From: Lachnospiraceae bacterium JLR.KK002
GTDB lineage: Bacteria; Bacillota; Clostridia; Lachnospirales; Lachnospiraceae
NCBI GenBank assembly: GCA_036941025.1
Contig: JAYMNP010000001.1
Coordinates: 2,750,501 to 2,814,500 of the forward strand
Direction of reading: 5' to 3'
Length of the DNA stretch: 64,000 nucleotides
Below, piece after piece: positions 34,852-62,272 of the stretch. Position 1 is the first letter of the stretch. Every line of letters starts with the position of its first letter. Both the position numbers and the translations under genes were made by a program. The notes under the pieces are model-generated. The model was given only the letters and a program-made list of their open reading frames with translations. It did not search any database and was not told the origin of the DNA.

Positions 34852-35037
34852 AACAAAGTGGACAGGTCTGCAGGGGCTCCCTGAATCCCTCATTTCTGAG
34901 AGACCTGAACACTTTGACGCGCCGAGCATGGTCGCTTCAGCGACATTATTCCATTCATGCGAGTGCGCATAATCGTTTTCTCTTATAGGAAATACGTTCA
35001 CGCTTCAGCGTGACAAGGTATTTCCTATAAGAGAACA
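34852..35037 (+). repeat. Three-hairpin dispersed repeat, full copy
   Basis: Hairpin I: AAAGTG...CACTTT extended by CAGGTCT/AGACCTG (34855-34915). Hairpin II: GACGCGCCGAG, stem CATG/CATG, mini-hairpin GTCGC-TTCA-GCGAC, 11-nt bulge, then CGAGTGCGCATAAT (34916-34973). Hairpin III: perfect 18-bp arms TTCTCTTATAGGAAATAC / GTATTTCCTATAAGAGAA (34978-34995 and 35018-35035) around TCACGC-TTCA-GCGTGA. Related copies are at 41327-41414 (minus, hairpin II deleted) and 62175-62272 (hairpins I and II). No coding capacity. It fills most of 34777-35069. Confidence 0.75.
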
Positions 35038-35065
35038 AAAACCCATCACATCTGTGATGGGTTTT
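35036..35065 (-). terminator. Terminator of tRNA-Gln
   Basis: On the minus strand AAACCCATCACA and TGTGATGGGTTT form a perfect stem ending in TTTTTG, five bases past the tRNA 3' end. It abuts hairpin III of the repeat element. Confidence 0.85.
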
Positions 35066-35069
35066 CAGA

Positions 35070-35141
35070 CTGGCCCACAAGGATTCGAACCTTGAAATGA
35101 CGGAGTCAGAGTCCGTTGCCTTACCGTTTGGCGATGGGCCA
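35070..35141 (-). tRNA. tRNA-Gln (anticodon CTG)
   Basis: 72 nt on the minus strand. Acceptor TGGCCCA pairs with TGGGCCA; the anticodon arm is ACGGA-CTCTGAC-TCCGT giving CTG, and the T-arm loop is GGTTCGAATCC. The 3' CCA is not encoded (discriminator G followed by TCT). The CTG isoacceptor implies a separate TTG tRNA elsewhere. Confidence 0.95.
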
Positions 35142-35197
35142 TTGTTTTTCAACAAAATGTATTATATACGAGTTCCGAAAGAATTGCAAGCACTTTT

Positions 35198-35842
35198 TTA
35201 AAAAATTTTTATTTTTCCGTCAATTAGTGCAAATTCCGCGGAATCCCCCGTCCGGACGGAAGACTTCCCGCTGGTTCCTTCTGTAATTTCCTGCTGCAGA
35301 AATTCCAGTTTTTCCAGAGGCACCATAACTTCCGTTGTCACTTTATCCGTATAACGGGTATCCATGGCAGTAATCTGATTCTGTGCCAGAATATACTGAA
35401 TTTTCCCAATATCACTATAATCACTGTCAATAACAAGGGGTCTTCCCGTCATTTTTTCAATCACAATGCTGTTGCGCAGCCCTTCCTGCACTGCTTTCTG
35501 GTAAGCCCGCACCAGTCCCCCGGTTCCCAGCAGCGTTCCGCCGAAATATCTGGTTACCACCACTGCCGCATTGTGGATATCTTCTTTCAGAAGCACATCC
35601 AGCATGGGGCGTCCCGCAGTCCCGCCCGGCTCTCCGTCATCGCTGCACCGCTGCAGATTCTGACTGCTTCCGGCCACAAAAGCATAACAGTTGTGACGGG
35701 CGTCCCAGTACTGTTTTTTCATTTTCCCGATAAACGCCAGAGCCTCCTCCTCGGTACCAACTGGTTCCAGATTTGCAATGAAGCGGGATTTCTTCTCCAC
35801 AATTTCTCCCGTTCCGCCCTGATATAATATTTTTACAGACAT
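35198..35842 (-). CDS. YigZ/IMPACT (UPF0029) family protein
   Basis: 214 aa. The N-terminal UPF0029 domain has KKSRFIANLEPVGTEEEALA, YWDARHNCYAF, CSDDGEPGGTAGRPMLDVLL and VVVTRYFGGTLLGTGGLVRA, all strongly conserved in YigZ. The C-terminal DUF1949 domain (SDYSDIGKIQYILAQNQITA) follows. The family is related to yeast YIH1/IMPACT and is proposed to bind translation components; bacterial function is not settled. AAGGTGG precedes the start. Confidence 0.93.
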   Translation of the reverse strand: MSVKILYQGGTGEIVEKKSRFIANLEPVGTEEEALAFIGKMKKQYWDARHNCYAFVAGSSQNLQRCSDDGEPGGTAGRPMLDVLLKEDIHNAAVVVTRYFGGTLLGTGGLVRAYQKAVQEGLRNSIVIEKMTGRPLVIDSDYSDIGKIQYILAQNQITAMDTRYTDKVTTEVMVPLEKLEFLQQEITEGTSGKSSVRTGDSAEFALIDGKIKIF

Positions 35843-35856
35843 AATCCACCTTTTGA

Positions 35857-35906
35857 GGAAACCGGGAACACCGTCCTGGGCAGCCGGTTCCCGGTTCTCT
35901 TTTTAT
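35857..35906 (+). terminator. Strong hairpin in the yigZ-ADH gap, possibly bidirectional
   Basis: AACCGGGAAC and GTTCCCGGTT form a perfect 10-bp stem around a 17-base loop, followed on the + strand by CTCTTTTTATT. There is no + strand gene upstream; on the minus strand it would act after the alcohol dehydrogenase gene, with a weaker TTTCCTC tail. Confidence 0.5.
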
Positions 35907-35977
35907 TCCCGCATACGACGGCCATACGACCGCAGCAGGCGGGTCTTCATTTACAAAAAGATACTTTCGGAACAGAA

Positions 35978-37159
35978 TTAAAAATCAACTTCTGTCCCAT
36001 AATATGTACAGGTAAACAGTTTTTCCATGGTGGCCGGGTCAATTTCCCTTGGATTGGAGCCCGTACATGCATCGCCTACTGCCCGCTCTGCAATACCGGA
36101 AACTTTTTCTTTAAACTCGTCCTCGTTGATACCGAATTCTTTCAGGGTCTTCGGTATATTGAGTCGTACATTGAAGTCGTCGATTTTTGCACAGAGGCTG
36201 TTAATCAGAGCTTTCTCTGAGGTTCCGTCCAGTCCCATTCTGCGTGCAATCTCAGCGTAACGGCCTGCCGCAACAGGATCTTTTGCATTGTATTTGATTA
36301 CATAAGGCAGATAAATGGCATTTGCACATCCATGGGGAATATGTCCTGTAGAGAATGCGGCGCCTGTCTTATGAGCCATGGAATGTACAATTCCCAGAAG
36401 GGCATTGGAAAATGCCATGCCGGCCAGGCACTGAGCATAATGCATCTGCTCTCTTGCAGCCATATTGCAGTTATAGGAAGCCGGAAGATAATCCAGAACC
36501 ATCTCAATTGCCTGCAGTGCAAGAGGATCTGTAAAGGAACAGTTCAGTGTGGACACATAAGCCTCAATAGCATGGGTCAGGGCGTCCATACCGGTGTAAG
36601 CCACCTGCTTCGGCGGAAGTCCTGCCACTAAATCCGGGTCCACAATTGCCACATCCGGTGTGATATTGAAATCAGCCAGCGGATATTTTACGCCTGTCTG
36701 ATAATTGGTAATTACAGAAAAAGCCGTAACCTCCGTTGCAGTTCCGGAAGTTGTGGGAATTGCACAGAATTTTGCTTTCTGTCTCAGTTCCGGGAAATTA
36801 AAGGGAATGCATAAATCTTCAAATGTGGTGTCCGGATATTCATAAAACGCCCACATTGCCTTGGCAGCATCAATGGGAGAGCCGCCGCCCATGGAAACAA
36901 TCCAGTCCGGCTCAAATTTGCGCATTGCCTCCGCACCCTTCATTACTGTCTCCACAGAGGGGTCGGGCTCCACGCCTTCAAAAAGCTCCACTTCCATGCC
37001 GGCCTCTTTCAGATAGCCAACTGCCTTATCCAGAAATCCCTGGCGTTTCATGGAACCGCCGCCCACTACAAGGATTGCTTTTTTTCCTTTCAGGTTCTTA
37101 AGCTCCTCCAGACACCCCGGTCCGTGATAGACATCCCTTGGTAACGTAAATCTTGCCAT
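35978..37159 (-). CDS. Iron-containing alcohol dehydrogenase
   Basis: 393 aa, group III metal-dependent ADH. NAD(P)-binding GGGSMKRQGFLDKAVGYL and VSMGGGSPIDAAKAMWAFY, the metal site in GIVHSMAHKTGAAFSTGHIP with its His residues, followed by HGCANAIYLPYV. Such enzymes reduce acetaldehyde or butyraldehyde, or oxidise 1,2-diols, in fermentation; substrate cannot be read from the sequence. AAGGAG precedes the ATG. Single gene. Confidence 0.93.
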   Translation of the reverse strand: MARFTLPRDVYHGPGCLEELKNLKGKKAILVVGGGSMKRQGFLDKAVGYLKEAGMEVELFEGVEPDPSVETVMKGAEAMRKFEPDWIVSMGGGSPIDAAKAMWAFYEYPDTTFEDLCIPFNFPELRQKAKFCAIPTTSGTATEVTAFSVITNYQTGVKYPLADFNITPDVAIVDPDLVAGLPPKQVAYTGMDALTHAIEAYVSTLNCSFTDPLALQAIEMVLDYLPASYNCNMAAREQMHYAQCLAGMAFSNALLGIVHSMAHKTGAAFSTGHIPHGCANAIYLPYVIKYNAKDPVAAGRYAEIARRMGLDGTSEKALINSLCAKIDDFNVRLNIPKTLKEFGINEDEFKEKVSGIAERAVGDACTGSNPREIDPATMEKLFTCTYYGTEVDF

Positions 37160-37251
37160 AGTATTCTTCTCCTTTTCTTATTTTTATGCAGCGGCCCGGC
37201 CATACATAAACCGAGCCGTTATGCCTTATTTACATTTTACGATATTTTTGC

Positions 37252-37280
37252 TTTATTTACCAGTCCTTTTTTGTTATAAT
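37252..37280 (+). promoter_or_regulatory. Likely promoter of the PBP1A gene
   Basis: TTTATT (37252-37257), 17-bp spacer, TATAAT (37275-37280) preceded by TGT, an extended -10. The family E palindrome lies between this promoter and the start codon. Confidence 0.5.
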
Positions 37281-37300
37281 ACTGTGATAAATTAAGAACC

Positions 37301-37336
37301 AGTTACTGTTCACACCCTACGGGTGTTCCGGTAACT
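37301..37336. repeat. Short palindrome, family E copy 2
   Basis: AGTTAC...GTAACT outer stem and ACACCC/GGGTGT inner stem, with TGTT and TCCG between. The core GTTACTGTTCACACCCTACG differs from the copy at 8319-8350 by single bases. It would be part of the PBP1A mRNA leader. Confidence 0.7.
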
Positions 37337-37388
37337 GCAAATGTCCCATACGGTATCATAACTGACCTGATTTAAGGAGGCTTACTAT

Positions 37389-40115
37389 ATGAATTATGGA
37401 AAGAAAGGCGTATCCCGGAAGGAAAAACAGATTACTTCCACTGCAACACTGGTACGCAAAAAATTTTCAGTCATTTTCTTTAAAACACTGCTTATCTGCT
37501 TTCTGGCCGCAGTTGTCATCGGCGGCTGCGCAGGTATCGGCATCTTCAAAGGCATTATTGATTCGGCACCCGATATTTCAGACATTGACCCCACCCCCAC
37601 AGGCTATCTGTCCGTGGTACTGGACAATCAGGGGAAGCAGACGGCCAAACTGGTAGCATCCGGCTCCAACCGGGTCTACGTCACTCTGGATGAAATTCCG
37701 AAAGACGTGCAACATGCTTTTGTGGCCATTGAGGACGAACGGTTCTATGAGCACAACGGCATTGATTTAAAAGGGATTATCCGGGCAGGCTTTAAAGGCA
37801 TCAGCAACGGATTCCACTTCAGCCAGGGGGCCAGCACCATTACCCAGCAGCTCCTGAAAAACAATGTATTTGAAGGCTGGACCAACCAGTCCGGCATTGA
37901 AAAGGTCAAACGTAAAATCCAGGAGCAGTACCTTGCCGTAGAGCTGAGCAAAATCAAATCCAAAGACTGGGTACTGGAAAATTATCTGAATACCATCAAC
38001 CTTGGGCAGAATACTCTGGGCGTCCAGTCCGCCTCCCGCCGCTATTTTGGAAAAGACGTTTCCGAGCTGACCCTTTCCGAGGGAGCGGTCATCGCAGGGA
38101 TTACCAAGAATCCTTCCGCCTACAATCCCGTCAGCCATCCGGAAGAAAATAAGAAGCGCCAGAAACAGGTGCTGAAAAATATGCGGGATCAGAACTATAT
38201 TTCAGATGAGCAGTACGAAGAAGCCCTGAAAGACGACGTTTATTCCCGGATTCAGCAGGTAAATATTGAATATGCAGAAGAAAATCCCAATTCTTATTTC
38301 GTGGACGCGGTGATTGACCAGGTGGTACAGGACCTGGTGGAAAAGAAAGGCTACACGGATACTCAGGCATACAAGGCCATTTACAACAGCGGCCTTACCA
38401 TTGAATCCACCCAGGACATGGCCATTCAGCAGGTCTGCGACGAGGAAGTCAATAATCCGGATAATTACTCCACCGCCGCAAAATATTCCTTTTCCTACCG
38501 GCTTACCGTGGAAAAAAAAGACGGTACCATGAAGAATTACAGCGACCAGACCATGATTTCCTATTACAGCGCCGCCTCCCCGGACTATTCTCTGAATTTC
38601 TCCAGCCAGGAAGAAGCTCAGGCCGCCATCGACGCCTACAAAGCCGAAATTATGGAAAGCGGGGACACCATTCCGGAAGGAGGGGAATCTGTGGTATTCA
38701 CTCTGCAGCCCCAGGCGGCTGTTACCATCATAGACCAGTATACCGGGGATGTGAAAGCCATCGTGGGCGGCCGGGGAGACAAGACCGGAAGCCGGACCCT
38801 GAACCGGGCCACCGATACCTCCAGACAGCCCGGCTCCACCTTTAAGGTACTGGCAGCCTACGCACCGGCTCTTGACACTGCCGGCATGACCCTTGCCACC
38901 GTGCAGGATGACGCACCTTTTTCCTATTCCAACGGAACTTCCCTGCGCAACTATGACGACAGTTACCGGGGATTCACCACCATCCGTTACGCCATCACCA
39001 AATCCATCAACGTGGTGACAGTAAAAACACTGGCAGATATCTCCCCCCAGACCGGTTATGATTATCTGAAAAATTTTGGCTTCACCACCCTGAAGGAGGA
39101 AGACATTGTGGAATCCCTGGCTCTGGGCGGCATTACTCAGGGTGTGACCAATCTGGAACTGACCGGCGCCTACGCCACCATTGCCGATGGAGGCACTTAT
39201 ATTAAACCCAGATTTTATAACAGGATTCTGGACCACAACGGCAACGTGCTGATTGACAACAGCCCGGAAACCCATACCGTATTAAAGGAAAGTACCGCTT
39301 ATCTGCTGACTTCCGCCATGGAGGATGTGGTCAATGTGGGAACAGGAGGGGCCGTCAACTTCGGCAACATGCCCATTGCAGGAAAAACAGGAACCACCAC
39401 AAAGAACCGGGACGTGCTGTTTGCAGGCTTTACTCCCTATTATACCTGTACGGTATGGTGCGGCTATGATGACAACAGCCCCCAGGAGGGCGCCCTTACA
39501 GCCAATCCCAAAACACTCTGGAAAAATATTATGGGCCGCCTTCATGAAAATCTGGAGTATAAGGAATTTACCCGGCCGGAAGGCATCGTGACAGCCGACG
39601 TCTGCAAAAAATCCGGGAAACTGGCGGTAGAAGGCCTGTGTGACATGGACCCGCGGGGCAGCATGGTGGAAACAGAACTTTTTGCCGCAGGAACCGTTCC
39701 CAACGAGTACTGCGACCATCATGTAAGCGCCACCATCTGTACGGCCTCCGGTATGCTTGCAAATGAATTCTGTCCGGAAGAAAACCGGCAGAGCGGTATC
39801 TATATCGTTGGAGGTTCCCCGGATACGGACGACGGCCCTTACCTGCTGTCCGATTCCCTGAGTCAGGAAAATTACTGTACCATCCACACAGCAGCCTCTG
39901 TAATTCCTGAAATTCCGGAAATCAATCTTCCTTCTGACAATAACAAAAAGCCGGACAAAAACGACAAAAACGACAAAAACGACAACGACAGGGACGACAG
40001 CGAGCAGGACAGGAATGACCAGGAGCTGGAAGAACCAGAGGAACCGGAACCTCCGGAGAATGACACGGAAGAACCGGAGCCTCCGGAAAATGACACCGGG
40101 GAAAACACCCCCTGA
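37389..40115 (+). CDS. Class A penicillin-binding protein (PBP1A-type)
   Basis: 908 aa. Cytoplasmic tail, one TM (about 32-58, TLLICFLAAVVIGGCAGIG), GT51 transglycosylase domain with EDERFYEHNGIDLKGIIRAG and GASTITQQLLKN, then the transpeptidase with SxxK in RQPGSTFKVLAAY, SxN in TKSINVVT and KTG in AGKTGTTTKNRD. A Cys-containing C-terminal region and an acidic, low-complexity tail built from KNDKND and EPEPPENDT repeats end the protein. AAGGAGG precedes the ATG. Confidence 0.97.
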   Translation: MNYGKKGVSRKEKQITSTATLVRKKFSVIFFKTLLICFLAAVVIGGCAGIGIFKGIIDSAPDISDIDPTPTGYLSVVLDNQGKQTAKLVASGSNRVYVTLDEIPKDVQHAFVAIEDERFYEHNGIDLKGIIRAGFKGISNGFHFSQGASTITQQLLKNNVFEGWTNQSGIEKVKRKIQEQYLAVELSKIKSKDWVLENYLNTINLGQNTLGVQSASRRYFGKDVSELTLSEGAVIAGITKNPSAYNPVSHPEENKKRQKQVLKNMRDQNYISDEQYEEALKDDVYSRIQQVNIEYAEENPNSYFVDAVIDQVVQDLVEKKGYTDTQAYKAIYNSGLTIESTQDMAIQQVCDEEVNNPDNYSTAAKYSFSYRLTVEKKDGTMKNYSDQTMISYYSAASPDYSLNFSSQEEAQAAIDAYKAEIMESGDTIPEGGESVVFTLQPQAAVTIIDQYTGDVKAIVGGRGDKTGSRTLNRATDTSRQPGSTFKVLAAYAPALDTAGMTLATVQDDAPFSYSNGTSLRNYDDSYRGFTTIRYAITKSINVVTVKTLADISPQTGYDYLKNFGFTTLKEEDIVESLALGGITQGVTNLELTGAYATIADGGTYIKPRFYNRILDHNGNVLIDNSPETHTVLKESTAYLLTSAMEDVVNVGTGGAVNFGNMPIAGKTGTTTKNRDVLFAGFTPYYTCTVWCGYDDNSPQEGALTANPKTLWKNIMGRLHENLEYKEFTRPEGIVTADVCKKSGKLAVEGLCDMDPRGSMVETELFAAGTVPNEYCDHHVSATICTASGMLANEFCPEENRQSGIYIVGGSPDTDDGPYLLSDSLSQENYCTIHTAASVIPEIPEINLPSDNNKKPDKNDKNDKNDNDRDDSEQDRNDQELEEPEEPEPPENDTEEPEPPENDTGENTP

Positions 40116-40323
40116 ACGTCCCTTAAGCCTCAGGCAGGAACTGCGCCTGCAGCGGACTGCCTGGCAGGCGGTCTGCGGCCTGTTTAAAGAGACCTGCGCC
40201 GAACTGTTGCAGATTTTGTGTCCTTTCCGGAAGAACAGATTGCGTATTGCGCCGCAGTTATGATATGATATGATAAATAAAAGAATACGTTCTATGATAA
40301 ATCACAGTGAGGAGGATATTAAA

Positions 40324-41250
40324 GTGAGATTAGTGACACGTTCCGATTTTGACGGCCTGGTATGCGGAGCACTGCTTTTAGAGGCAGGCATTATTGACAC
40401 CTGGAAATTTGCACATCCAAAGGATTTACAGGATGGTCTGGTGGAAATCAATGAGAACGACTGTCTGGCAAATGTACCTTTTGTGGAAGGCTGCGGACTG
40501 TGGTTCGACCATCATTCCAGCGAACATGAGCGGCTGGAGCTGGAAGGAAAATATAAAGGTGAGAGCAGGATTACCCCTTCCTGTGCCAGGATTATTTATG
40601 AGTATTACGGAGGCAGCGAACGTTTTCCCCAGTTCGGAGAAATGATGGAAGCGGTAGACAAGGTAGATTCCGGCAACCTGACCATAGAGGAAGTACTTCA
40701 TCCCTCCGGATGGATCCTGGTTGGCTTTCTGATGGACCCCAGAACCGGACTTGGAAGATGGCGCCAGTTTTCCATTTCCAACTACCAGTTGATGGAAAAG
40801 CTCATGGAAGCATGTCGCACCATGTCCACAACGGAGATTCTGGAACTTCCGGATGTGAAGGAACGAATTGAAGTATACTGGGAACAGACGGAAAAGTTTA
40901 AGGAAATGGTAGAAAAGTATACGCGGACAGAAGGAAATGTGATTATTTCTGATTTAAGAGGTGTGGAGCCCATCTATACGGGAAACCGCTTTATGATTTA
41001 CAGTATGTATCCGGAACAGAATATTTCCGCATGGATTGTCAGCGGCCGGGGCGGACAGGGCTGTTCTGCTGCTGTGGGCTACAGCATTCTGAACCGTACC
41101 TGTGAAGTAAATGTGGGCAGCCTGATGCTGAAATACCAGGGCGGCGGACACCGGAAAGTAGGCACATGCCAGTTTTCAGAAGAAACCATGCACACGGAAC
41201 TGCCGAAAATGCTGGAAGAACTCTGTAAAATGGCAAATCAGACAGCATAA
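40324..41250 (+). CDS. DHH-family phosphoesterase (exopolyphosphatase-like)
   Basis: 308 aa from a GTG start at 40324, chosen because GAGGAGG lies nine bases upstream; ATG codons earlier in frame have no such site. Motif I TRSDFDGLVCGALLLEAG and the DHH motif LWFDHHSSEHERLE, followed by VDKVDSGNLTIEE, are those of the DHH superfamily. The C-terminal DHHA1-like part includes GRGGQGCSAAVGYSILNRT and KYQGGGHRKVGTCQF. Likely substrates are short oligonucleotides, cyclic dinucleotide products or polyphosphate; not distinguishable here. Confidence 0.85.
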   Translation: MRLVTRSDFDGLVCGALLLEAGIIDTWKFAHPKDLQDGLVEINENDCLANVPFVEGCGLWFDHHSSEHERLELEGKYKGESRITPSCARIIYEYYGGSERFPQFGEMMEAVDKVDSGNLTIEEVLHPSGWILVGFLMDPRTGLGRWRQFSISNYQLMEKLMEACRTMSTTEILELPDVKERIEVYWEQTEKFKEMVEKYTRTEGNVIISDLRGVEPIYTGNRFMIYSMYPEQNISAWIVSGRGGQGCSAAVGYSILNRTCEVNVGSLMLKYQGGGHRKVGTCQFSEETMHTELPKMLEELCKMANQTA

Positions 41251-41280
41251 TCTGTCCGCTTATTATTTCCTGCCGGAAGA

Positions 41281-41330
41281 AGGCGCTGTAAAATCATCTG
41301 TCCGGATGATTTTACAGCGCCTCTTTTTAT
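41281..41330 (+). terminator. Terminator of the DHH gene
   Basis: Perfect 18-bp stem AGGCGCTGTAAAATCATC / GATGATTTTACAGCGCCT, loop TGTCCG, then CTTTTTATC. The T-run merges with the first arm of the adjacent dispersed repeat. Confidence 0.92.
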
Positions 41331-41414
41331 CTTACAGGAAAGACCTTGCCACGCTAAAGCGTGAAAGTGTCTTCCCATAAGATAAAAGTAATATGCGGAC
41401 CTGTCCGCTTTGTT
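41327..41414 (-). repeat. Three-hairpin dispersed repeat, deletion copy
   Basis: Read on the minus strand: ACAAAGCGGACAGGTCCGC, then ATATTACTTTT, then hairpin III with arms TTATCTTATGGGAAGAC / GTCTTTCCTGTAAGATAA around CACGC-TTTA-GCGTG and the block GGCAAGG. Order and sequence follow the full copy at 34852-35037, but most of hairpin I and all of hairpin II are missing, leaving a fused GCGGA/TCCGC stem. Confidence 0.7.
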
Positions 41415-41424
41415 GCCGCAGAAA

Positions 41425-42486
41425 TCAGATTTCTGCCTGCTCTGTCTGTGCAGGCTGTCTGGCGGCTACTTCCATATAATAAACAACTTTTTCATCGCTG
41501 ATACTCTGGTTAAACCGGTCTGCAAAGCACTCCAGTATATTCTGGGTTACCCCGGTCATCACCCTTGCTGTCCGGTTCTCGTGGGCCTCTCCCCAGACCT
41601 TCTCCGGGAACACACCTTCTACTCTTACACGGAACCGCTCCTGATTCACTGGCATAATCACAATTTTTACGTGGAATACCCAGGAAATCATCTCAAATCT
41701 GGTAAGAAGCAGCCAGATAATAAAGTGGAGATTTGTGCAAAAATACGGGTCCATCTCCTGGGGGCAGTTTTCAATCTCCAGCACCACCTGCTGATCCCGC
41801 TCCGGATGCAGAAAATGCTTATAGATATCACGTCTGACCTCTTCCAGATTCCCAGGGAATCCTCCCTCTTTTTCCAGCAGACGGAACAATACCTTCCGCT
41901 CGTATTCAACCAGCTTCCATTTTTCCTGCTCAGACAGTTCTGACTCAACATCCCGGACAAACACATTCAGCAGTGCATGAAGGAATTTGACCAGTTCTTT
42001 CTTCTCCCAGGGGCGTTCCTCTGCTACCCGTTTCAGCATGGCTGCCTGTACGGACGCTTTTTTCAGATTCTGCTCCAGATCACGCCGTTCCAGAGCGTCT
42101 GTCTCTTTCCTGTCGTATTTGATAAATCCGTCCATAATAGCTCCGTACAACTGGAGATAGTTGGTGGGCCGCTGGAAAATCCGGAATACCTTCCGCTCGT
42201 TTACCAGCAGCTTTACATGGGCCAGCTCCAGCCGCCAGGAATAAACGATACAGACGGTCCTGGGATAATTTCTGTTCAGATATTCGATGATTTTCGTTCC
42301 GTCATAAGTGGGCAGATCCAGTCCTGTGACCACTACCTTATATTTCTTTTTCTTCAGAAGAAATGCCGCTTCCAGGCCGCTGTCAGCCGTATCAATTTCC
42401 ATAGGGCAGTCTCTTCCTTCCATCGCCTCCAGAAATTCCTGGATAATATCTTTATTCTGATTGATAAATAACAGATTATTTTCCAT
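41425..42486 (-). CDS. Atypical receiver-domain protein next to amt
   Basis: 353 aa. Residues 1-120 resemble a response-regulator receiver (NNLLFINQNKDIIQEFLEAM, YKVVVTGLDLPTYDGTKIIE, VFRIFQRPTNYLQLYGAI), but the phospho-acceptor Asp position before x-x-L-P is Gly (GLDLP) and the acidic pair near the N-terminus is Asn/Gln. The C-terminal 200 residues (KKELVKFLHALLNVFVRDVE, DPYFCTNLHFIIWLLLTRFE) match no family I recognise; there is no evident ANTAR or DNA-binding motif. It begins 95 bp after the amt-PII gene on the same strand, so a nitrogen-related regulatory role is possible. GGAGG precedes the ATG. Confidence 0.7.
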   Translation of the reverse strand: MENNLLFINQNKDIIQEFLEAMEGRDCPMEIDTADSGLEAAFLLKKKKYKVVVTGLDLPTYDGTKIIEYLNRNYPRTVCIVYSWRLELAHVKLLVNERKVFRIFQRPTNYLQLYGAIMDGFIKYDRKETDALERRDLEQNLKKASVQAAMLKRVAEERPWEKKELVKFLHALLNVFVRDVESELSEQEKWKLVEYERKVLFRLLEKEGGFPGNLEEVRRDIYKHFLHPERDQQVVLEIENCPQEMDPYFCTNLHFIIWLLLTRFEMISWVFHVKIVIMPVNQERFRVRVEGVFPEKVWGEAHENRTARVMTGVTQNILECFADRFNQSISDEKVVYYMEVAARQPAQTEQAEI

Positions 42487-42581
42487 TTTCCTTCCTCCGC
42501 GCTTTACTTTTCATTATTGTCTTCATTATAAACGCTTTGGACGAAAAAATCCACTGGTTTCTGAAAGGTATCTGTTACATG

Positions 42582-44327: not shown

Positions 44328-44340
44328 AATAATTCCTCCC

Positions 44341-44370
44341 TTTTGCGCACAGGTGCGCATAATTGTTTAT
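44341..44370. repeat. Possible remnant of the three-hairpin repeat in the amt leader
   Basis: TGCGCA-CAGG-TGCGCA is a perfect hairpin, and GTGCGCATAATTGTTTAT matches the end of hairpin II in the other copies (GTGCGCATAATTATTTTAT at 62263). It lies a few bases before the amt ribosome site, so it would affect the mRNA leader. Confidence 0.45.
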
Positions 44371-44375
44371 AAAAT

Positions 44376-44432
44376 AAAAAACGGTGCTTTTCCGTCGTCC
44401 ACAGCGTCGTGGCTCCACAAAAGTACCGTTTT
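44376..44432 (-). terminator. Terminator-like attenuator in the amt leader
   Basis: On the minus strand AAAACGGT-A-CTTTT pairs with AAAAG-C-ACCGTTTTTT, enclosing CCAC-GACGCT-GTGG. The strand is followed by a T-run. A TATAAT at 44557-44552 would start a leader of about 220 nt containing it. There is no gene between this promoter and amt, so the hairpin probably attenuates amt. The factor that would relieve it is unknown. Confidence 0.65.
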
Positions 44433-44623: not shown

Positions 44624-44703
44624 CCTCCCTTTTCAGGGAATGCGCCAGGTGTACGGAGCCCTTTTAAGGCCGCCGCACACAGGCCGTTTCTCTTATTTAT
44701 ATA

Positions 44704-53431: not shown

Positions 53432-53529
53432 TGTCTGTTCCTCCTGTTCACTCTGATGATTCCCTTCACGGGCAGTTACTCTGAATCAGCCTTCGCCTGC
53501 CTCGCTCTCCGGCAGCCGGTTGTGCCGCA

Positions 53530-54474
53530 TCAGTCCTCTTCTTCCTCATCTTCTGACTTCTGCAGGTTTTCCTGTACCCGGCGGTACAGTTCTTTCGCCG
53601 CATTGTAGCCCATCTTTTTCTGTCTGTGGTTTACCGCCGCAGACTCGCAGATGACAGCCAGATTACGTCCGGGGCGGATAGGCAGAGAGTGGCATACCAC
53701 CTTATTGCCGAGAAATTCCGTATATTCCTCCTCCAGTCCCAGACGGTCATATTCGTTTTCTTTCTTCCAGTCTTCCAGTTTGATTACCAAATCTATATTC
53801 TGTTTCTCTTTCACACATTCCACGCCAAACAGAGTCTTCACATCAATAATGCCCACGCCCCGCAGCTCAATAAAATATCTGGTAATATCCGGCGCCGTTC
53901 CCACCAGCGTATGCTTGTTAATCTTGCGGATTTCCACCACATCGTCGCTGACCAGACGATGGCCTCTGCGAATCAGTTCCAGGGCGGCCTCGCTTTTACC
54001 TATTCCGCTCTCTCCCATAATCAGCAGTCCTTCTCCGTATACGTCCACCAGCACGCCGTGAATGGAAATACAGGGCGCCAGCGCTTCTCCCAGATAATAA
54101 ATCAGCTCTGCCATAAATGCAGAAGTACCGTAATCTGTGGAAAGCACCGGAGTATCATGCTCCGTTGCAATCTGCAGAAGGTCTCCGTCCGGCTCCAGAT
54201 TCCGGCTGAAAATGACGCAGGGTACGTTGTGAGAAAAGAATTTCCGATATAAATCCAGTTTTTCTTCCCGGTCCAGTTTCTGCATATAGGTGTGCTCCAC
54301 CATGCCCACGATCTCCACTCTGCTCTTTTCAAAATAATCAAAATATCCTGCTAACTGCAATGCCGGACGGTTTACTTCGGCGGTTGTCACCTTGCGCTTC
54401 TTAATATCCACTTCCGGATTCAGTACCTTCAGATTCATCTTTTCCACTATTTTTTTCACGCTTACACCGTTCAT
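53530..54474 (-). CDS. hprK: HPr kinase/phosphorylase
   Basis: 314 aa. Two adjacent ATG codons exist; the second (54474) has the better distance from AAAGGAG. The P-loop GESGIGKSEAALELIRRGHR (about 155), the signature EIRKINKHTLVGTAPDITRY and ELRGVGIIDVKTLFG are conserved. The C-terminus ends in an acidic EDEEEED. It phosphorylates HPr and Crh at Ser46; the Crh-like target is encoded four genes downstream. Confidence 0.96.
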   Translation of the reverse strand: MNGVSVKKIVEKMNLKVLNPEVDIKKRKVTTAEVNRPALQLAGYFDYFEKSRVEIVGMVEHTYMQKLDREEKLDLYRKFFSHNVPCVIFSRNLEPDGDLLQIATEHDTPVLSTDYGTSAFMAELIYYLGEALAPCISIHGVLVDVYGEGLLIMGESGIGKSEAALELIRRGHRLVSDDVVEIRKINKHTLVGTAPDITRYFIELRGVGIIDVKTLFGVECVKEKQNIDLVIKLEDWKKENEYDRLGLEEEYTEFLGNKVVCHSLPIRPGRNLAVICESAAVNHRQKKMGYNAAKELYRRVQENLQKSEDEEEED

Positions 54475-54625
54475 CATATCTCCTTTTCTCCGGTTCTTCC
54501 GGCAGTAAATCTTTTCCTGTTACAGACAGAACTCCGTACGCATATTTTATCACAGATGATGCTCTCCTTCAACTGACCTGGCTACTTTAGCGGGTGAAGT
54601 AAACAGTAACAACTGCGCATTCTGG

Positions 54626-54663
54626 TTTTTCATTCTACAGAGTTTTTCCTGTAGAATGAAAAA
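54626..54663. repeat. Perfect 15-bp inverted repeat across the uvrC stop codon
   Basis: TTTTTCATTCTACAG (54626-54640) and CTGTAGAATGAAAAA (54649-54663) are exact complements around an eight-base loop. The uvrC stop codon lies in one arm. No T-run follows on either strand, so it is not a standard terminator. Confidence 0.7.
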
Positions 54664-56509
54664 AATCATAAACCGCCTGTGCCGCCTGCTGATTCATGGA
54701 AGGAAGTTCCGCCAGCGTCTCCACATCTGCTTCCCGTATGGCATCCAGTGAAAGGAATGCCTTCATCAGGGCCTTTCTTCTGGCCGCCCCAATTCCCGGA
54801 ATGTCATCCAGCACAGAATGCACCTGCTCTTTGCTTCTCAGGGACCGGTGATATTCAATGGCAAACCGGTGAGCTTCATCCTGGATTCTGGTAATCAGCT
54901 TAAATCCTTCGCCGTGCCTGTCAATGGGAATCTCTTTATTCTGATAGTATAACCCGCGGGTGCGGTGATTATCATCTTTTACCATACCGCATACGGGAAT
55001 ATGCAGTCCAAGCTCCCCCAGCACCTTAAGAGCCACATTCACCTGCCCTTTTCCTCCGTCCATCATAATCAAATCGGGAAACCGGGTAAAGCTGCCGTAT
55101 TCATGTTCCAGCGCCCGCTCTTTCATTTCTTTCTGTTCTTTCATTCCATGGGAAAACCGTCTTGTAAGCACTTCATACATGGAACCGTAATCATCGGGCC
55201 CTGTTACGGTACGCAGTTTGAATTTCCGGTAATCGCTGCGTTTGGGCTTCCCCTTTTCATAAACCACCATGGAGCCCACGGTTTCGAATCCGTTGATATT
55301 GGAAATGTCAAATGCTTCCACCCGCTTCAGTTCTTCTAACTCCAGCAGTTTTCCGATTTCCCTCAGAGCGCCGATGGTTCTTCCTTCTTCCCGCCGGATT
55401 TTCTCCTTATCCTGGGATAATACCATGGAAGCGTTCTGAGCCGCCAGCTCCACCAGCTTCTCTCTGGTGCCCTTTTTGGGAACCCGGACGTAAACTTTCT
55501 GTCCCCGTTTCTGACTCAGCCACTCCTCTATCACTTCGGATTCTTCTATTTCCTCCTGAAGCATCAGCTCTCTGGGTATAAAAGGTGTTCCGGCATAGAA
55601 CTGTTTCAGAAATGTGGCCATCACCTGGGGCCTGGTATCCTCGCTTCCCACATTCACATGGAAATGGTCCCTGCCAATCAGCTTACCGTCCCGCACAAAA
55701 AATACCTGAACCACCGCGTCCTCTCCGTCCGAGGCCATGGCGATAATATCCCTGTCCTCTCCGTCCGAACTGGTAATCTTCTGTTTCTGGGCAATCTGTT
55801 TTACTGCTTTTAAAAGCTCCCGGTACTCAATGGCTTTTTCAAAATTCATATTTTCAGAGGCCGCCTGCATTTTTTCTTCCAGCTCTTTCAGTACCGGCTG
55901 GTAATTTCCATTGAGAAATTCTATCACCCGGCGAATCTGCTCCCGGTATTCTTCTTTGCTCACATTCCCCTGACAGGGAGCCATACACTGGTGGATATGA
56001 TAATTCAGACAGGGCCTCTCTTTTCCGATGTCCTTGGGCAGAGACCGGCTGCAGGTCCGCAGAGAATATATCTTCTGAATCAGTTCTATGGTGTCCTTTA
56101 CCGCGCCCGCGCTGGTATAAGGCCCGAAATACCGGGATTTGTCTTTTTTCATCTGACGTGAAAAGAGGACTCTGGGAAAATCCTCTCCCAGCGTCACTCT
56201 GATATAAGGGTATGTTTTATCATCCCTCAGCATGGTATTATATTTGGGCCGATGCTCCTTGATAAGATTGCATTCCAGAATCAGCGCTTCCAGCTCGGAA
56301 TCGGTGATGATGTATTCAAACCGCTCAATCTGTCTCACCATCTGCTCCTTTTTCAGTCCCTCATTATGGCTGGGACGGAAATACTGGCGCACCCGATTCC
56401 GCAGGCTGACTGCCTTTCCAATGTAAATAATCGTATCCTTCGCATCGTGCATAATGTACACTCCCGGCTTTTGAGGGAGTTTTTTCAGTTCTTCCTGAAT
56501 ATCAAACAT
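54635..56509 (-). CDS. uvrC: UvrABC excision nuclease subunit C
   Basis: 624 aa. GIY-YIG domain [23 protein letters not shown] motif [18 protein letters not shown], the RNase H-like endonuclease ([38 protein letters not shown]), and a C-terminal helix-hairpin-helix ([20 protein letters not shown]). It makes both incisions in nucleotide excision repair. The ATG shares one base with the ftsH stop (TAATG), indicating coupling. Confidence 0.97.
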
Positions 56510-59500
56510 TATTTTATTCCTTTTAAGAGTTTATCCAGATAATCTTCTCCATTTCCGGAATCAGCCTGTTCTGCTTCCATGTCTTCCTCCGGCGCTTCTA
56601 AAGGTTCCGCCTCCGGATTTCTCTCCGGCGCTTCAGAAAGTTCTTCTTCCTGCACCTCTTCCGGCTCGCCTTCCTTATCCGGCGTATGGGAAATTTCCTT
56701 TTCTTTCCCGGAAATACCCTTTTTCACCGGAAAAAATCCCCATTCTTCCGGAGTCTCCGGCTCTGCTGAAAAGGCTTTTTTCACAGCTTCTTCCAGAGCA
56801 GACACACTGTCTTCCTGCCGGGAAGCTGTTTCTTCCTCTGCAGCCTTTTTCTCCATACGCTTTTTCCGCAGAGAGACAATGGCTGAATTCTCAGGAACTT
56901 CCATATTCAACAGGAGCTTTTCTTCCGGTTTCTCCTCCTGAGGGCCATTTACCATTACAGGAATAATCTGTATTTCTTCTTCCGGAGATTCTGACGTCTC
57001 CTGCAGAACTTCCTCTCCTTTTGAAGGTTCTGTCAGTTCCTGCGGGATTTTCCCTCCTTCCAGCGTATTGACCTCCAGATATGCCTCCGCATCCTCCGGC
57101 ATATCATCCTGATTCAGTTCTTCTCCGCCTTCCAGAATCCTGGCTTCCAGCAGTTCCGCCGGACTTAAGGTATTCACTTCCAGAATCGGTTCTTCTTCCA
57201 GCGTATTGACTTCCAGATATGCCTCCACAGCTTCCGGCTGTTCCGGTTCCAGAACTTCCGGCTCCGGTTCTGATGATTCCTTCACAGATGCTTCTTCCGG
57301 CTCCGGCGTATCCGGAACTGGCTCTTTCTCCGACTCTGACTTATCCGGAACTGATTCTTCCTCCGGCTCCGGCGTTTCCGGAACTGATTTTTCCTCCGGA
57401 ACAGACGTATCCGGAACTGGCTCTTTCTCCGACTCTGACTTATCCGGAACTGGTTCTTCCTCCGGCTCCGGCGTTTCCGGAACTGGCTCTTCCTCCGGAA
57501 CTGATTCTTCTTCCGGTTCCGGTTTTGCAGAAATCTGCTCCGCTGTTTCCGGGACCTGCTGCTCATGTCCGGACACAGCTTTTTCTTCCGGTTTCGCAAA
57601 TTCCCATTTACGAGTTTCTTCGGCTTTAAATCCTTCTGCGGCCTTTTCCGCTTCCGTTTTTTCCTCCGGCTCCGGAATTCCCTTCAGTTCACGGAAAATC
57701 TTCATAAATTCTTTTCCGGTAATTGTCTCATGTTCATAAAGGTACTGAGCAATCTCATCCAGAATGTTCCGGTTCTCCTGAAGCAGACGGGTCGCCTCGT
57801 CATAGCTGTCTTTCAGAATCTTCATAACCTCCTGGTCAATCTGGGCTGCTGTTTCCTCTCCGCAGTTCAGACTTGCCCTTCCATCCAGGTACTGGTTTTC
57901 CACAGTGACCAGTCCCATAAGGCCAAACCGTTCTGACATGCCATACTGGGTCACCATGGACCTTGCAATCTTGGTGGCCTGTTCAATATCGTTGGAAGCT
58001 CCTGTGGTAACGGAATCAAATACAATTTCCTCCGCTGCCCGGCCGCCCATATAGGTGACAAGACGGGCCACCAGTTCATTTTTGGTCATCAGGAATTTCT
58101 CTTCTTCCGGCACCTGCATGGTATAGCCCAGTGCTCCCATGGTTCTCGGCACGATGGTAATCTTCTGCACCGGTTCCGCATCTTTCTGCAAAGCAGTCAC
58201 CAGCGCATGGCCCACTTCATGACAGGCAACCATTTTCTTTTCTTTCGGTCCCATTATCCGGTCTTTTTTCTCTTTACCTGCAATGACCACTTCTACCGAT
58301 TCAAACAAATCTCCCTGATTTACATATTTTCTGCCCTGTTTTACCGCATTGATGGCCGCTTCATTAATCATATTGGCCAAATCTGAGCCCACTGCCCCGG
58401 ACGTTGCCAGTGCAATAGCATCCAAATCCACGGAATCATCCAGAAGCACATTTTTGGCATGGACTTTCAGGGTCTCCACCCTTCCTTTCAAATCCGGTTT
58501 GTCCACAATAATTCTGCGGTCAAAACGCCCCGGACGCAGCAGAGCCTTGTCCAGTACTTCCGGACGGTTGGTTGCTGCCAGAATCAGAAGGCCTTTGGAA
58601 GTATCAAAACCGTCCATCTCCGCCAGAAGCTGATTCAGGGTCTGTTCCCGTTCATCATTGCCGCCGTATCGGGTATCCCGGCTCTTGCCGATAGCGTCAA
58701 TTTCATCAATAAAAATGATACAGGGCGCCTGTTTCTGAGCTTCTTTAAACAAATCACGGACACGGGAGGCACCCACGCCCACAAACATTTCCACAAAATC
58801 AGAACCTGCCAGTGAAAAGAAAGGCACTTTCGCCTCTCCGGCCACTGCCTTGGCAAGGAGGGTCTTACCGGTTCCCGGAGGGCCCACCAGCAATGCTCCC
58901 TTGGGCAGCTTTGCTCCGATATCCGTATATTTTCTGGGATTATGCAGGAAATCCACCACTTCCTGCAGGGATTCCTTGGCCTCGTCCTGTCCCGCCACAT
59001 CCTTGAATGTAACGCCTGTGGACTTCTCCACATAAACTTTTGCGGTGGTCTTCCCGACCCCCATCATTCCGCCGCCTCCCATTTTGCGGAAAATCAGAAA
59101 ATAAAGCAGAATCCACACCAGCACCAGAGGCAGAATATAACTTACCATATTCCACATAATGGCTGTGGATACATCTTCCACAGTTCCGCTGAATTTAACG
59201 TCATGCTCTTTCAGCAGCGGCAGCAGCGTCTCATCATTTAATTCCGCTGTGTAATAAGTTATCCGGTATAATCTGTTCTCCTCTTTGGGCGTAATATTAA
59301 TCCGGTTGGAGGTAAATGTCACCGACTCTACCTTATCCTGCTCCACCATATCTATAAATTCCGAATACGTGACTTCTTTGTTGGTGGCATCTTTGGCACA
59401 GCTGTTCAGAAGGCTGGTCAGAAAAAGCACCAGCAAAGCAGCCAGAATAAAGACCATAATCGTCATTCCGTTTTTATTGCCGCCATTATTATTTCCACCT

Positions 59501-59529
59501 TTGTTATTGTTATTTCCTTTGTTCTCCAT
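56509..59529 (-). CDS. ftsH: ATP-dependent zinc metalloprotease FtsH with a long acidic C-terminal tail
   Basis: 1006 aa against about 600-650 for most FtsH. Normal part (1-615): TM1 at 22-43, extracytoplasmic loop, TM2 near 125-145, AAA domain with Walker [18 protein letters not shown] and Walker [13 protein letters not shown], and the zinc motif [11 protein letters not shown]. From about 620 to 1006 there is a Pro/Glu-rich, probably disordered tail with repeats [20 protein letters not shown] and [10 protein letters not shown], ending [14 protein letters not shown]. The AAA-protease half is complete, so it should be active. AGGAGG precedes the ATG. Confidence 0.96.
57305..57503. repeat. Tandem 99-bp DNA repeat inside the ftsH tail
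   Basis: The segment starting GTATCCGGAACTGGCTCTTT occurs at 57308 and again at 57407, with nearly identical downstream sequence (33 codons per unit). A shorter block encoding [10 protein letters not shown] is also repeated near 57061 and 57198. Copy number could vary between strains. Confidence 0.75.
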
Positions 59530-59705
59530 TTATTTCCTCCTGCGTATCGCAACCGTCTGTTTCGCGACACCTCTTTATTATATGTGCATTTTCCTTGAAA
59601 ATCAATACAATTCTCCTAAACTTTTCCCCGCATTTCTAAAGTTTTTATAAAAAGAACCGCACACAGGCCAGAGTGTGTCAACAAAAGGACAAAACTTCTA
59701 ACAAA

Positions 59706-59921
59706 TTACTTCAATTTATAATAACTTCCCTTCAATTTTCCCTCTTTTTTCAATACCCCTGCCTCTACCAGTTCTTTTAAGATTTTTAATGCACGGGAAT
59801 CTTTTACATTCAGCAACTCCTGAACCTCTTTATTCGTTATTGCCCCTCTTTCCTCTATATACTGAATAATCTTTTTATAATTGTCATTTGATTTATCCGT
59901 ACTTTTCCGTACTTTTTCCAT
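59706..59921 (-). CDS. Winged-helix C-terminal remnant of an AlbA_2/RecG-like protein
   Basis: 71 aa if started at 59921; the same frame is open upstream to a TAG at 60023-60021, reading DAFHINLFRFSDKTRIG just as the end of HATPase_c_4/AlbA_2 proteins does, then STDKTQKG before this part. The visible domain is a winged helix (IIQYIEERGAITNKEVQELL, DSRALKILKELVEAGVLKKE). It is most likely the 3' end of a decayed gene. The DNA is AT-rich compared with its neighbours, a sign of transfer. Confidence 0.55.
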   Translation of the reverse strand: MEKVRKSTDKSNDNYKKIIQYIEERGAITNKEVQELLNVKDSRALKILKELVEAGVLKKEGKLKGSYYKLK

Positions 59922-59983
59922 ACCTTTTTGCGTTTTATCCGTACTTTTTCCAATTCTGGTTTTATCCGAAAAACGGAATAAGT

Positions 59984-60340
59984 TTATATGAAATGCGTCT
60001 TTAAATTCCCGGTTTTTATGCTATCCTGAAAATAATCATTTGTTTTTCCATATTTTTTTGAAAGAAACTTATAAAAGTTCCCTATTACAGAAAAGTAAAT
60101 ATCTACAGCAGCTCTGCTTTTAAGGTTACCTGCCTTCACATAATATTCTACACTCCGTAATAAGGTATCCTTATCCATTACATTCAGGAAACAAATACAG
60201 GTAACATTCTTTTCTCTAAGTTCTAAAGAGACAAATTCGTAAAAAGCATATATTTTGCTCCTATATATATTTGCAGTTGATTCTCCATTTTCTTTCTTCT
60301 GCATATCCAAAAATTCTTTTATTTCATCGGAAAACTCCAT
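59984..60340 (-). CDS. Integrase N-terminal (SAM-like core-binding) fragment
   Basis: 118 aa. FSDEIKEFLDMQKKENGEST, then ANIYRSKIYAFYEFV and YYVKAGNLKSRAAVDIYFSV, GNFYKFLSKKYG, resemble the core-binding domain of tyrosine recombinases. The catalytic domain (R...H-x-x-R...Y) is missing, and the end overlaps the frame of the next fragment. It probably cannot recombine DNA. AAGGA precedes the ATG. It belongs to the same AT-rich island. Confidence 0.5.
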   Translation of the reverse strand: MEFSDEIKEFLDMQKKENGESTANIYRSKIYAFYEFVSLELREKNVTCICFLNVMDKDTLLRSVEYYVKAGNLKSRAAVDIYFSVIGNFYKFLSKKYGKTNDYFQDSIKTGNLKTHFI

Positions 60341-60542
60341 ATTTTTTCCTTTTCAAGTTCTTTATGTACTTATTTTTTGAGTTTCATCGTAACATAAGAA
60401 TACTTATTTTTCAATACAGGATTTTTCTTTCCAAATCTTTTTTATTTTTATAAAAGTTCTGGCTTTCTTTCTCCGCAGGTTGTATAATATATTAGTTATA
60501 ATCAGAGTTTATTAATGTTCACATATAAAGGAGGATCTGTCT

Positions 60543-62153
60543 ATGCCCGTAAAATACGTCTTTGTCACCGGTGGAGTTGTATCCGGTCTCGGCAAGGGAA
60601 TTACCGCCGCGTCCCTGGGCCGGCTGCTGAAAGCCCGCGGATACAAAGTCACCATGCAGAAATTTGACCCTTACATCAACATCGACCCCGGCACCATGAA
60701 CCCCATTCAGCACGGAGAGGTCTTTGTCACCGACGACGGTGCGGAAACAGATTTGGATTTGGGCCATTACGAGCGTTTTATTGATGAAAATTTAGGCAAA
60801 AATTCCAACGTAACCACGGGCAAGGTCTACTGGTCCGTGCTCCAGAAGGAACGCCGGGGCGACTACGGCGGAGGCACTGTCCAGGTAATCCCCCATATTA
60901 CCAATGAAATCAAGAGCCGGTTTTACCGGAATTTTACCACGGAAGAAACCCATATTGCCATTATCGAGGTAGGCGGTACCGTGGGTGATATGGAAAGTCA
61001 GCCCTTTCTGGAATCCATCCGCCAGTTCCAGCACGAAGTGGGACATGAGAACGCTATCTTAATCCATGTTACCCTGATTCCCTATATCACCGCTTCCGGA
61101 GAAATGAAGACAAAACCCACCCAGGCCAGTGTCAAGGAACTGCAGGGTATGGGAATCCAGCCTGATATTATTGTGTGCCGTTCGGAACATCCTCTGGACC
61201 AGGCCATCAAAGATAAAATTGCATTATTCTGCAACGTACCTGACAGCCATGTGCTTCAGAATCTGGATGTGGAGTACCTGTATGAAGCTCCTCTGGCCAT
61301 GGAAAAAGAGAATCTGGCCCAGGTAGCCTGCGAATGTCTCCATCTGGACTGTCCGGAGCCGGATTTAAGCGACTGGATAGATATGGTGGACTCCCTGCGC
61401 AATCCCAACAAAGAGGTGGAAATTGCCCTTGTGGGAAAATACATTTCCCTCCACGACGCCTACATTTCCGTTGTGGAAGCTCTGAAACACGGCGGAATCG
61501 CGGAGCGGGCCACCGTCAATATCAAATGGGTGGATTCGGAACTGCTGAATGAAGAGAATGTAGCTCAGATTCTTGGAGACGTGCAGGGGATTCTGGTTCC
61601 CGGCGGATTCGGCGACCGGGGCATTGACGGTAAAATACTGGCATGTCGGTACGCAAGGGAGCATAAGGTCCCGTTCCTGGGACTCTGCCTGGGTATGCAG
61701 CTTGCCATTGTGGAATTTGCCCGCCATATCTGCGGATTCCGGGACGCTCACAGTATTGAGCTGGACCCCAACACCACTCATCCCGTCATCGCACTGATGC
61801 CTGACCAGAACGGCGTAGAAGATATCGGCGGGACACTGCGGCTGGGTTCCTGTCCCTGCGTTCTGGACAAGTCCTCCAGAGCATATCAGGTCTATGGAAC
61901 GGAAACCATCCACGAGCGTCACCGTCACCGTTATGAAGTAAACAACGATTACCGCTCTGTCCTTACGGAGCACGGCATGAAGCTCTGCGGCCTTTCCCCG
62001 GACGGACGGATTGTGGAAATGGTGGAAATCCCGGATCATCCCTGGTATATTGCCACACAGGCTCATCCGGAATTAAAATCAAGGCCCAACCGGCCCCATC
62101 CGCTGTTTAAAGGCTTTGTGGAAGCTGCCATTAAAATGAAACAGCAGCCTTAA
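60543..62153 (+). CDS. pyrG: CTP synthase
   Basis: 536 aa. Synthetase domain: [60 protein letters not shown]. Glutaminase domain: nucleophile Cys in [16 protein letters not shown] and the HPELKSRP His-Glu pair. It aminates UTP to CTP. AAAGGAGG precedes the ATG, and TATAAT (60483-60488) lies about 55 bp upstream with a poor -35. I see no attenuator of the G-run type. Confidence 0.98.
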
Positions 62154-62174
62154 CTCCCGGACTGTATGCTGAAC

Positions 62175-62272
62175 AAAGTGTGCAATCCCCTCAAGATTGA
62201 GGGGATTGCACACTTTGACGCGCCGAGTGCAGTTGCGAAGCAACTAATACCTTTTGCACGAGTGCGCATAAT
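62175..62272 (+). repeat. Three-hairpin dispersed repeat, copy with hairpins I and II
   Basis: Hairpin I has perfect 19-bp arms beginning AAAGTGTGCAATCCCC and ending GGGGATTGCACACTTT. Then GACGCGCCGAG, stem TGCA/TGCA, mini-hairpin GTTGC-GAA-GCAAC, bulge TAATACCTTT, and CGAGTGCGCATAAT. Compared with 34852-35037 the unpaired blocks are identical, while four pairs of the II stem and one pair of the mini-hairpin are changed with compensation. It is the only content of the 62154-62285 gap between pyrG and the alkylsulfatase gene. Confidence 0.75.

Follow-up and report, generated by a model that had tools for sequence, protein, structure and literature searches.

A dispersed three-hairpin element of Lachnospiraceae nearly always follows replication-fork polarity and often adjoins intrinsic terminators

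We analysed a 64,000-nucleotide stretch of DNA (the window) from Lachnospiraceae bacterium JLR.KK002 (assembly GCA_036941025.1, contig JAYMNP010000001.1, positions 2,750,501 to 2,814,500, forward strand), which carries copies of a dispersed element that folds into three hairpins (I, II and III). The element is about 120–230 bp long; it is non-coding, as a preliminary description of the window had stated. Nearly all of its copies in the host genome lie on the strand predicted by the direction of the replication fork; many adjoin intrinsic terminators, and related species differ in the sites occupied. Our best reading, to which we give about even odds, is that the element is non-autonomous mobile DNA that uses a fork-coupled single-stranded-DNA route and inserts behind intrinsic terminators.

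Strand polarity, terminator adjacency and movement

The preliminary description had called for a covariance-model search, and this search yielded many further copies. The model of hairpin II, designated R1 and built from 24 sequences, had 93 matches at E ≤ 1 in the host genome (G000). The 88 matches at E ≤ 5.3e-4 were used for polarity, anatomy, neighbours and hairpin II mismatches, with the five weakest omitted. A BLAST search of the same genome with the full copy returned 87 matching pieces, palindromic hairpin III being counted on both strands. R1 at E ≤ 0.01 matched 34 of 61 genomes (G000 included), among them 26 of 27 same-genus relatives, and at E ≤ 1e-4 it matched 96 of 299 genomes across Lachnospiraceae (298 genera; per-genome counts of 18 in this survey mean at least 18). 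Its presence in related Lachnospiraceae was confirmed. The numbers of R1 matches were 94 in G024, 88 in G014, 86 in G012, 81 in G009 and 54 in G021. A pattern scan of species genomes found 44 stretches, 43 of which were labelled Lachnospiraceae, Eubacterium or Hungatella; the remaining one, from Bradyrhizobium, looks like chance. Plasmid and phage collections gave no match (one query each), and three exact patterns found 0, 1 and 0 stretches in viral contigs. The element was seen here only on chromosomes or unassigned contigs of Lachnospiraceae. Rfam models at relaxed scores, intron families included, had no credible match on the element (positions 34500–35200 of the window and seven loci), and searches of open-licence PubMed Central, outside which subscription journals and preprints fall, turned up no paper apparently describing it.

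The dnaA gene of G000 lies at position 3513049 of contig 1 (C1). Among the chromosomal copies at E ≤ 5.3e-4, 85 of 87 were on the strand expected from the direction of the fork if the terminus is placed near 0.86 Mb; this terminus position was derived from the strand switch itself, and the dnaA position is independent of the switch. The copy on contig 2 is outside this count and inside the 88 loci of the neighbour-gene and GC-skew counts. GC skew of the fetched loci switched sign with the strand of the element (45 of 46 and 38 of 42 loci, overlapping loci each counted). In 400 kb of one arm, 227 of 281 genes of at least 150 aa (81%) were on the leading strand, so that gene bias alone predicts about 70 of 87 copies, versus the 85 observed (p = 2e-6). 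The same pattern, with more exceptions, was found in other genomes among the matches listed, which were 67 of 94 in G024 and 83 of 88 in G014. On G024 contig 2, 24 of 26 copies agreed with dnaA; on its contig 1, which has no independent marker, all 25 copies up to 1.52 Mb were on the minus strand, followed by 9 plus and 3 minus. On G014 contig 1, 31 of 35 copies below 2.5 Mb were minus and all 11 above were plus. G315, a single-contig genome of another genus, had 15 of 15 copies in two strand blocks among the matches listed, and GC skew fitted at 7 of 7 loci. Judged from dnaA and the skew, the element as written would be the leading-strand template and its complement the lagging-strand template.

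Terminator adjacency was examined in the 53 of the 88 copies whose hairpin III end could be recognised; the other 35 were omitted. Of the 53, 33 had both an A-tract and a hairpin (6 bp or more) starting within about 12 nt of this end, versus 23 of 2650 random windows of the same loci (0.9%). Read on the other strand, the order is hairpin, T-tract and element, so that the element comes after a predicted intrinsic terminator. Together with its tail (e.g. CTTTGTTC, CTTTTTCA), hairpin I likewise resembles a hairpin plus T-tract, i.e. a terminator, and each copy thereby regenerates a site of the type at which it is found. Head-to-tail arrays of up to four copies were found, e.g. at C1:186683-187466. 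By eye, G000 copies 3626986 and 2839803 adjoin apparent T-box leader terminators, the former being one of the two copies off the predicted strand. Lone short hairpin III-like palindromes or half-palindromes stand before terminators at G024 sites L293 and L300 and on the G024 side of site A2, where G000 has the full element; these could represent remnants or a unit in its own right.

Movement was assessed within and between genomes. Genome G272 has 10 copies in unrelated flanks (median identities 31% and 35%). Their median pairwise identity is 91.5%, with 7 of 45 pairs at 97% or more, which indicates recent copying; the minimum is 64.8%, because some of the copies have another hairpin III. The four copies of G154 have a median identity of 89%. 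The G272 copies are mosaics of modules, with one hairpin I-II combined with differing hairpins III, and their left ends vary, 7 of 10 reading TGAAAAAG. G000 and G024 are syntenic, mostly at 80–95% identity. In a 400-kb comparison, 14 of 23 matches (10 sites) had mappable flanks, and a recognised orthologous copy was present at none of the 14; at one of the 10 sites, a diverged stretch resembling hairpin II is present in G000 but was missed by the profile. Near-identical copies in unrelated flanks, together with occupancy differences between species, show that the element moves.

When 30 G024 copies were compared with the 88 G000 copies, about ten shared a site by both flanks. At least four shared sites held different subtypes (1817600/L197, 2214067/L190, 518114/L204 and 940476/L113), and these four pairs alone serve as evidence for different occupants. 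Two further pairs (3192372/L186 and 3556541/L415) were the same copy in stretches 98–100% identical; the coordinates used for G024 copies L407–L421 were approximate, which biases their identities downward. These results indicated that sites are reused and that occupants change, and both hot-site insertion and gene conversion fit.

Architecture and copies in the window

The copies that the preliminary description had listed were confirmed, with small refinements: the second copy starts at 62174, and hairpin II is the deleted part of the deletion copy. The features are as follows.

34799–34847, plus strand: inner part of a further hairpin III, head-to-tail ahead of the full copy (sequence, profile search)
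34852–35037, plus strand: full copy with three hairpins (reading of the site, sequence, fold)
34854–34916, plus strand: hairpin I of the full copy, long type CAAAGTG..CACTTTG (sequence, RNA fold)
34919–34968, plus strand: hairpin II of the full copy, in the order GCGC, CGAG, CATG, inner hairpin, unpaired strand, CATG, CGAG, T, GCGC (sequence, folds, model match C1:2785411-2785474)
34978–35035, plus strand: hairpin III of the full copy (fold)
35038–35065, minus strand: terminator-like A-tract, hairpin and T-tract between the full copy and the tRNA gene (sequence)
35070–35141, minus strand: tRNA-Gln gene; the full copy adjoins it on its downstream side (Rfam, ARAGORN)
41327–41414, minus strand: deletion copy, in which the beginning of hairpin I runs directly into hairpin III (sequence, fold)
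44341–44370, plus strand: possible weak remnant, a hairpin II end followed by an A-tract and a hairpin (sequence, 11-mer count)
62174–62272, plus strand: second copy, hairpins I and II without III (sequence, fold)
62174–62217, plus strand: almost perfectly palindromic hairpin I of the second copy (sequence, fold)
62220–62267, plus strand: hairpin II of the second copy, with no hairpin III after it (sequence, fold, model match C1:2812712-2812773)

The hairpin III region at 34973–35036 had DNA fold z-scores of -10.2 (plus) and -9.2 (minus). The tRNA was the sole match of an Rfam scan of the window at gathering score, which found no intron domain V/VI. The deletion copy keeps its terminator adjacency and breaks the fork polarity of its arm. 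The stretch at 44341–44370, previously called a likely remnant, is a fair candidate but a weak one: it has in common with the element only GTGCGCATAAT, after which come an A-tract and a terminator-like hairpin. With at most one mismatch this 11-mer occurs 4 times in the window (3 exact) against an expectation of 0.83; a count of 4 was reached in 1 of 100 shuffles.

Hairpin II has constant parts (an outer stem GCGC/GCGC, CGAG opposite CGAG and a bulged T) and variable parts (a 4-bp stem and a 5-bp inner hairpin), with an unpaired pyrimidine-rich strand on one side. The stem swaps reported between the two window copies, CATG/CATG to TGCA/TGCA and GTCGC/GCGAC to GTTGC/GCAAC, are exact. The conserved blocks had been described as identical and unpaired. 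They are identical, but they would not be simply unpaired: GCGC is predicted to pair with GCGC, one T to bulge, and CGAG to face CGAG in the apparent order C-G, G.A, A.G, G-C. A second type of hairpin II reads GCGCGCGAGCGG...CCGCGAGCTGCGC. Hairpin III usually keeps TAGGAA...TTCCTA and has variable outer arms; hairpin I is nearly unconstrained in sequence and occurs in long, short and modular types. Six G000 copies (3239704, 1695013, 486077, 672216, 1257161 and 3342916) carry, within the inner hairpin of hairpin II, an additional arm of about 48 nt (GATTTGTCCTAAGGGGTACC..) that is itself a hairpin. The left flanks of G000 copies 449082 and 3643389 and the G000 side of site B2 contain another structured repeat, in which TCGAGCAG..CTGCTCG precedes a hairpin ending GGGGCTGTGCAT; it appears to be a third subtype of hairpins I and II without III, more diverged than the others.

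The covariation of the stems was borne out for hairpins II and III. Neither outcome that the preliminary description had named as refuting it, a genome with no other copies or stems without covariation, was observed. For hairpin II, we analysed 24 sequences and 15 pairs (360 cells) with 500 column shuffles and with partner slides. Of the cells, 97.5% were paired, and sliding the partner by 1–3 columns reduced this to 62.2% or less. Both sides had changed in 8 of 15 pairs (46 such cells). The number of doubly changed pairs was reached in 4 of 500 shuffles; the cells paired, the changed cells and the covariation score were reached in none. One measure was unsupportive: there were 12 further pair types, which all 500 shuffles equalled or exceeded (mean 14.5). 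The arms of hairpin III (143 distinct pairs, 7 positions) were 61% Watson-Crick, versus a shuffled mean of 41% and a maximum of 46% in 500. These figures are not probabilities, because related copies are not independent.

The preliminary description had taken the covariation to mean selected structure in RNA or single-stranded DNA. The structure held up; as to its nature, the evidence leans to DNA while leaving room for RNA, and the G.T excess is weak. On the strand as written, hairpin II mismatches comprised 57 G.T versus 31 A.C, hairpin III arms 32 versus 19, and short hairpin I 10 versus 7. By comparison, 12 tRNAs of the same sequences had 20 G.T and 0 A.C, an outcome that ARAGORN's own pairing rules favour. 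The ratio in the element is far from RNA-like yet uneven, favouring the plus strand. Single copies had similar energies in DNA or RNA folds of either strand. Folding asymmetry was tried as an indicator of RNA and rejected: hairpin II was stabler on the plus strand in 56 of 78 cases, hairpins I and III were even, the whole element gave 39 versus 48, and the flank control was itself strongly skewed and not clean.

Candidate enzymes and explanations of the spread

The suggested Y1/RAYT-type partner was not supported. The Y1 family (PF01797) was present in 19 of 37, 6 of 8 and 11 of 18 genomes searched, with no visible relation to copy number and no linkage to the element; it was absent from the copy-rich G024, G009, G012 and G021 and from the single-contig genomes G315 and G282. 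Reverse transcriptase (PF00078, RVT_1) was present in 10 of 11 genomes and absent from G024. Among 75 scanned loci with a Y1 or reverse-transcriptase gene, one carried a copy of the element (a Y1 locus of G023). The seven Y1 matches of G000 (C1 1277851, 1342912, 1987618, 2099747, 2368000, 2592894 and 3260879) have equal scores and 170-aa frames and belong to an IS200-type element with its own hairpins; their strands follow no single rule. IS200 ends as a source of the hairpins were rejected, being unrelated by eye at seven Y1 loci of five genomes (other IS200/IS605 elements were not compared). No autonomous longer copy, with pieces of the element split by a gene, was seen in a profile search with inspection of loci of at least 7000 bases. 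Neighbouring open frames (918) were clustered, and the 14 largest clusters look by eye like common families, one of them being a short frame that overlaps the element. At L351 (G312:C36), about bases 1–130 of 1716, an apparent 3' end of a group II intron lies inside the hairpin III remnant of a copy; this call was made by eye from domain V/VI-like letters.

In the fork-coupled route that we put forward, the complement of the element would become exposed as single-stranded DNA on the lagging-strand template, an enzyme would recognise its hairpins, and the terminator T-tract would be the joining site. The complement would be inserted just behind this T-tract, giving the order terminator hairpin, T-tract, hairpin III, hairpin II, hairpin I and T-rich tail. 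Hairpin I and the tail of each copy would then form a new landing site for the next, which would explain the head-to-tail arrays. An HUH-type nuclease acting like IS608 or TnpA-REP would best fit the anatomy; none was found linked to the element. In favour of the route are the fork polarity in G000, G024 and G315, the terminator adjacency, the near-identical copies of G272, the arrays and the weak G.T excess; transposition into the lagging-strand template also has a precedent (PMC6006769).

Several observations weigh against this route. No engine was found, the families searched being Y1 and reverse transcriptase. Flank pairs of 11 copies were searched in seven relatives for a clean empty site; four aligned (at one of which a second relative did not align) and none was clean, so the element ends and the target duplication are not fixed. 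Two of the 87 G000 copies (3626986 and 3943384) break the fork rule, as does the deletion copy at 41327–41414, which lacks hairpin II and is outside the 87, and exceptions are more numerous in G024 and G014 than in G000. In the terminator test 20 of 53 copies failed, several being arrays or hairpins with longer loops. The mismatches of hairpins I–III together (99 G.T versus 57 A.C) favour pairing on the plus strand, and the conserved G.A/A.G pair forms on that strand, whereas the model exposes the complement.

The mismatches would suit an RNA-mediated process. The A-tract of a sense RNA could pair with the 3' end of the terminator T-tract and prime reverse transcription, or a ribonucleoprotein like that of group IIC introns could recognise hairpin and T-tract in single-stranded DNA; both variants would yield the observed target and polarity. 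An A-tract at the 3' end of the element, a T-tract at the target and the varying left ends of the G272 copies agree with this, and a group IIC intron does use a DNA stem-loop as target, according to PMC10190682. Against it stand the absence of RVT_1 from G024 with its 94 matches, although loss is possible, a G.T ratio far below that of tRNAs, and the lack of a credible Rfam match in the region and loci given above. We regard RNA mediation as rather unlikely. Copying could also proceed without an enzyme, if a nascent strand stalled at a terminator hairpin used its T-tract to switch templates to another copy's A-tract, copied that copy and switched back. Fork polarity, the A/T tracts at both element ends, the mosaic modules of G272, the missing engine and the empty plasmid and phage searches all agree with such switching. 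Just two protein families were tested as engines, however, the precise repeated ends in G272 (TGAAAAAG in 7 of 10) suggest an enzyme, and we know of no precedent for dispersal on such a scale, which counts against it; we hold this route to be improbable. In its broadest form, the element would be chromosome-bound, family-wide mobile DNA with no dedicated transposase or reverse transcriptase, which copies itself at forks by hairpin capture of the nascent strand, terminator T-tracts serving as joining sites and every copy ending in a landing site for the next. We offer this tentatively, as an unlikely possibility.

Alternatively, the element could be a resident functional one (a transcript 3' end, or a fork or nucleoid site) at fixed places and shuffled by gene conversion. 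By a crude open-frame rule the right-hand gene reads toward the element in 77 of 88 copies, and two species share some occupied terminators, at least four of which hold different subtypes. This orientation by itself does not exceed the overall gene bias (75 of 86 copies for which both neighbours are known, p = 0.17), and gene orientation predicts 81%, not 98%, of the strands. Moreover, none of the 14 matches with syntenic flanks has a recognised orthologous copy, and the flanks in G272 are unrelated. A fixed resident role is therefore, in our judgement, very improbable.

Relation to known systems and significance

Genomes with REPIN/RAYT systems encode a Y1 (RAYT) protein, and the repeats usually flank its gene. 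The element shares with REP/REPIN and TnpA-REP (RAYT) that short non-coding hairpin repeats are dispersed between genes and presumed to be mobilised in trans; it differs in having three hairpins with other conserved boxes, in sitting behind terminators and in several copy-rich genomes without a Y1 protein. According to PMC3116915, tandem REP arrays face forward on one side of the genome and in reverse on the other. With IS200/IS605 (IS608, ISDra2) and their non-autonomous derivatives it shares subterminal hairpins and a lagging-strand-template orientation, and PMC6006769 describes insertion into the lagging-strand template for IS608-type transposition. In contrast, the IS200-type ends of G000 are unrelated to the element, and no Y1 gene lies in it or is linked to it.

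The landing motif of group IIC introns is often a terminator. A stem-loop followed by the insertion site is a target common to these introns and the element (33 of 53 copies), and PMC10190682 names a DNA stem-loop as the intron's landing motif. The element, however, is far too short, lacks intron domains by Rfam and has no reverse transcriptase inside. Dispersed structured intergenic repeats are also a point of likeness to bcr1 and BOX, a comparison made by general description rather than by sequence. The bcr1 repeats of Bacillus cereus, BOX of pneumococci and similar repeats are dispersed and non-coding, 100–200 bp long, with conserved secondary structure; we know of no report of fork polarity or terminator adjacency for bcr1 or BOX. 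The R'/R'' boxes of integron attC sites were not noticed by eye in hairpin II, and no integrase search was made. As for the features of DDE-type miniature inverted-repeat transposable elements (MITEs), the two ends of the element are different hairpins, A-tracts lie on both sides, and none of the four aligned sites was clean.

The element works like fork-coupled single-strand transposition (IS608) and shares the stem-loop landing motif of group IIC introns, but the tests made here place it in neither group. In kind it is REPIN/MITE-like, with a new target and polarity. What is new here is the fork-tracking strand, the terminator adjacency and the movement; fork-coupled single-strand transposition is known from a few insertion sequences and from group II introns. 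The element, small and non-coding, reaches about 90 copies per genome and is present in about a third of the sampled genera of Lachnospiraceae. Its insertion may alter the 3' ends of many genes; it also serves as a marker of replication direction in gut anaerobes, and it points either to an enzyme yet to be named or to copying without one.

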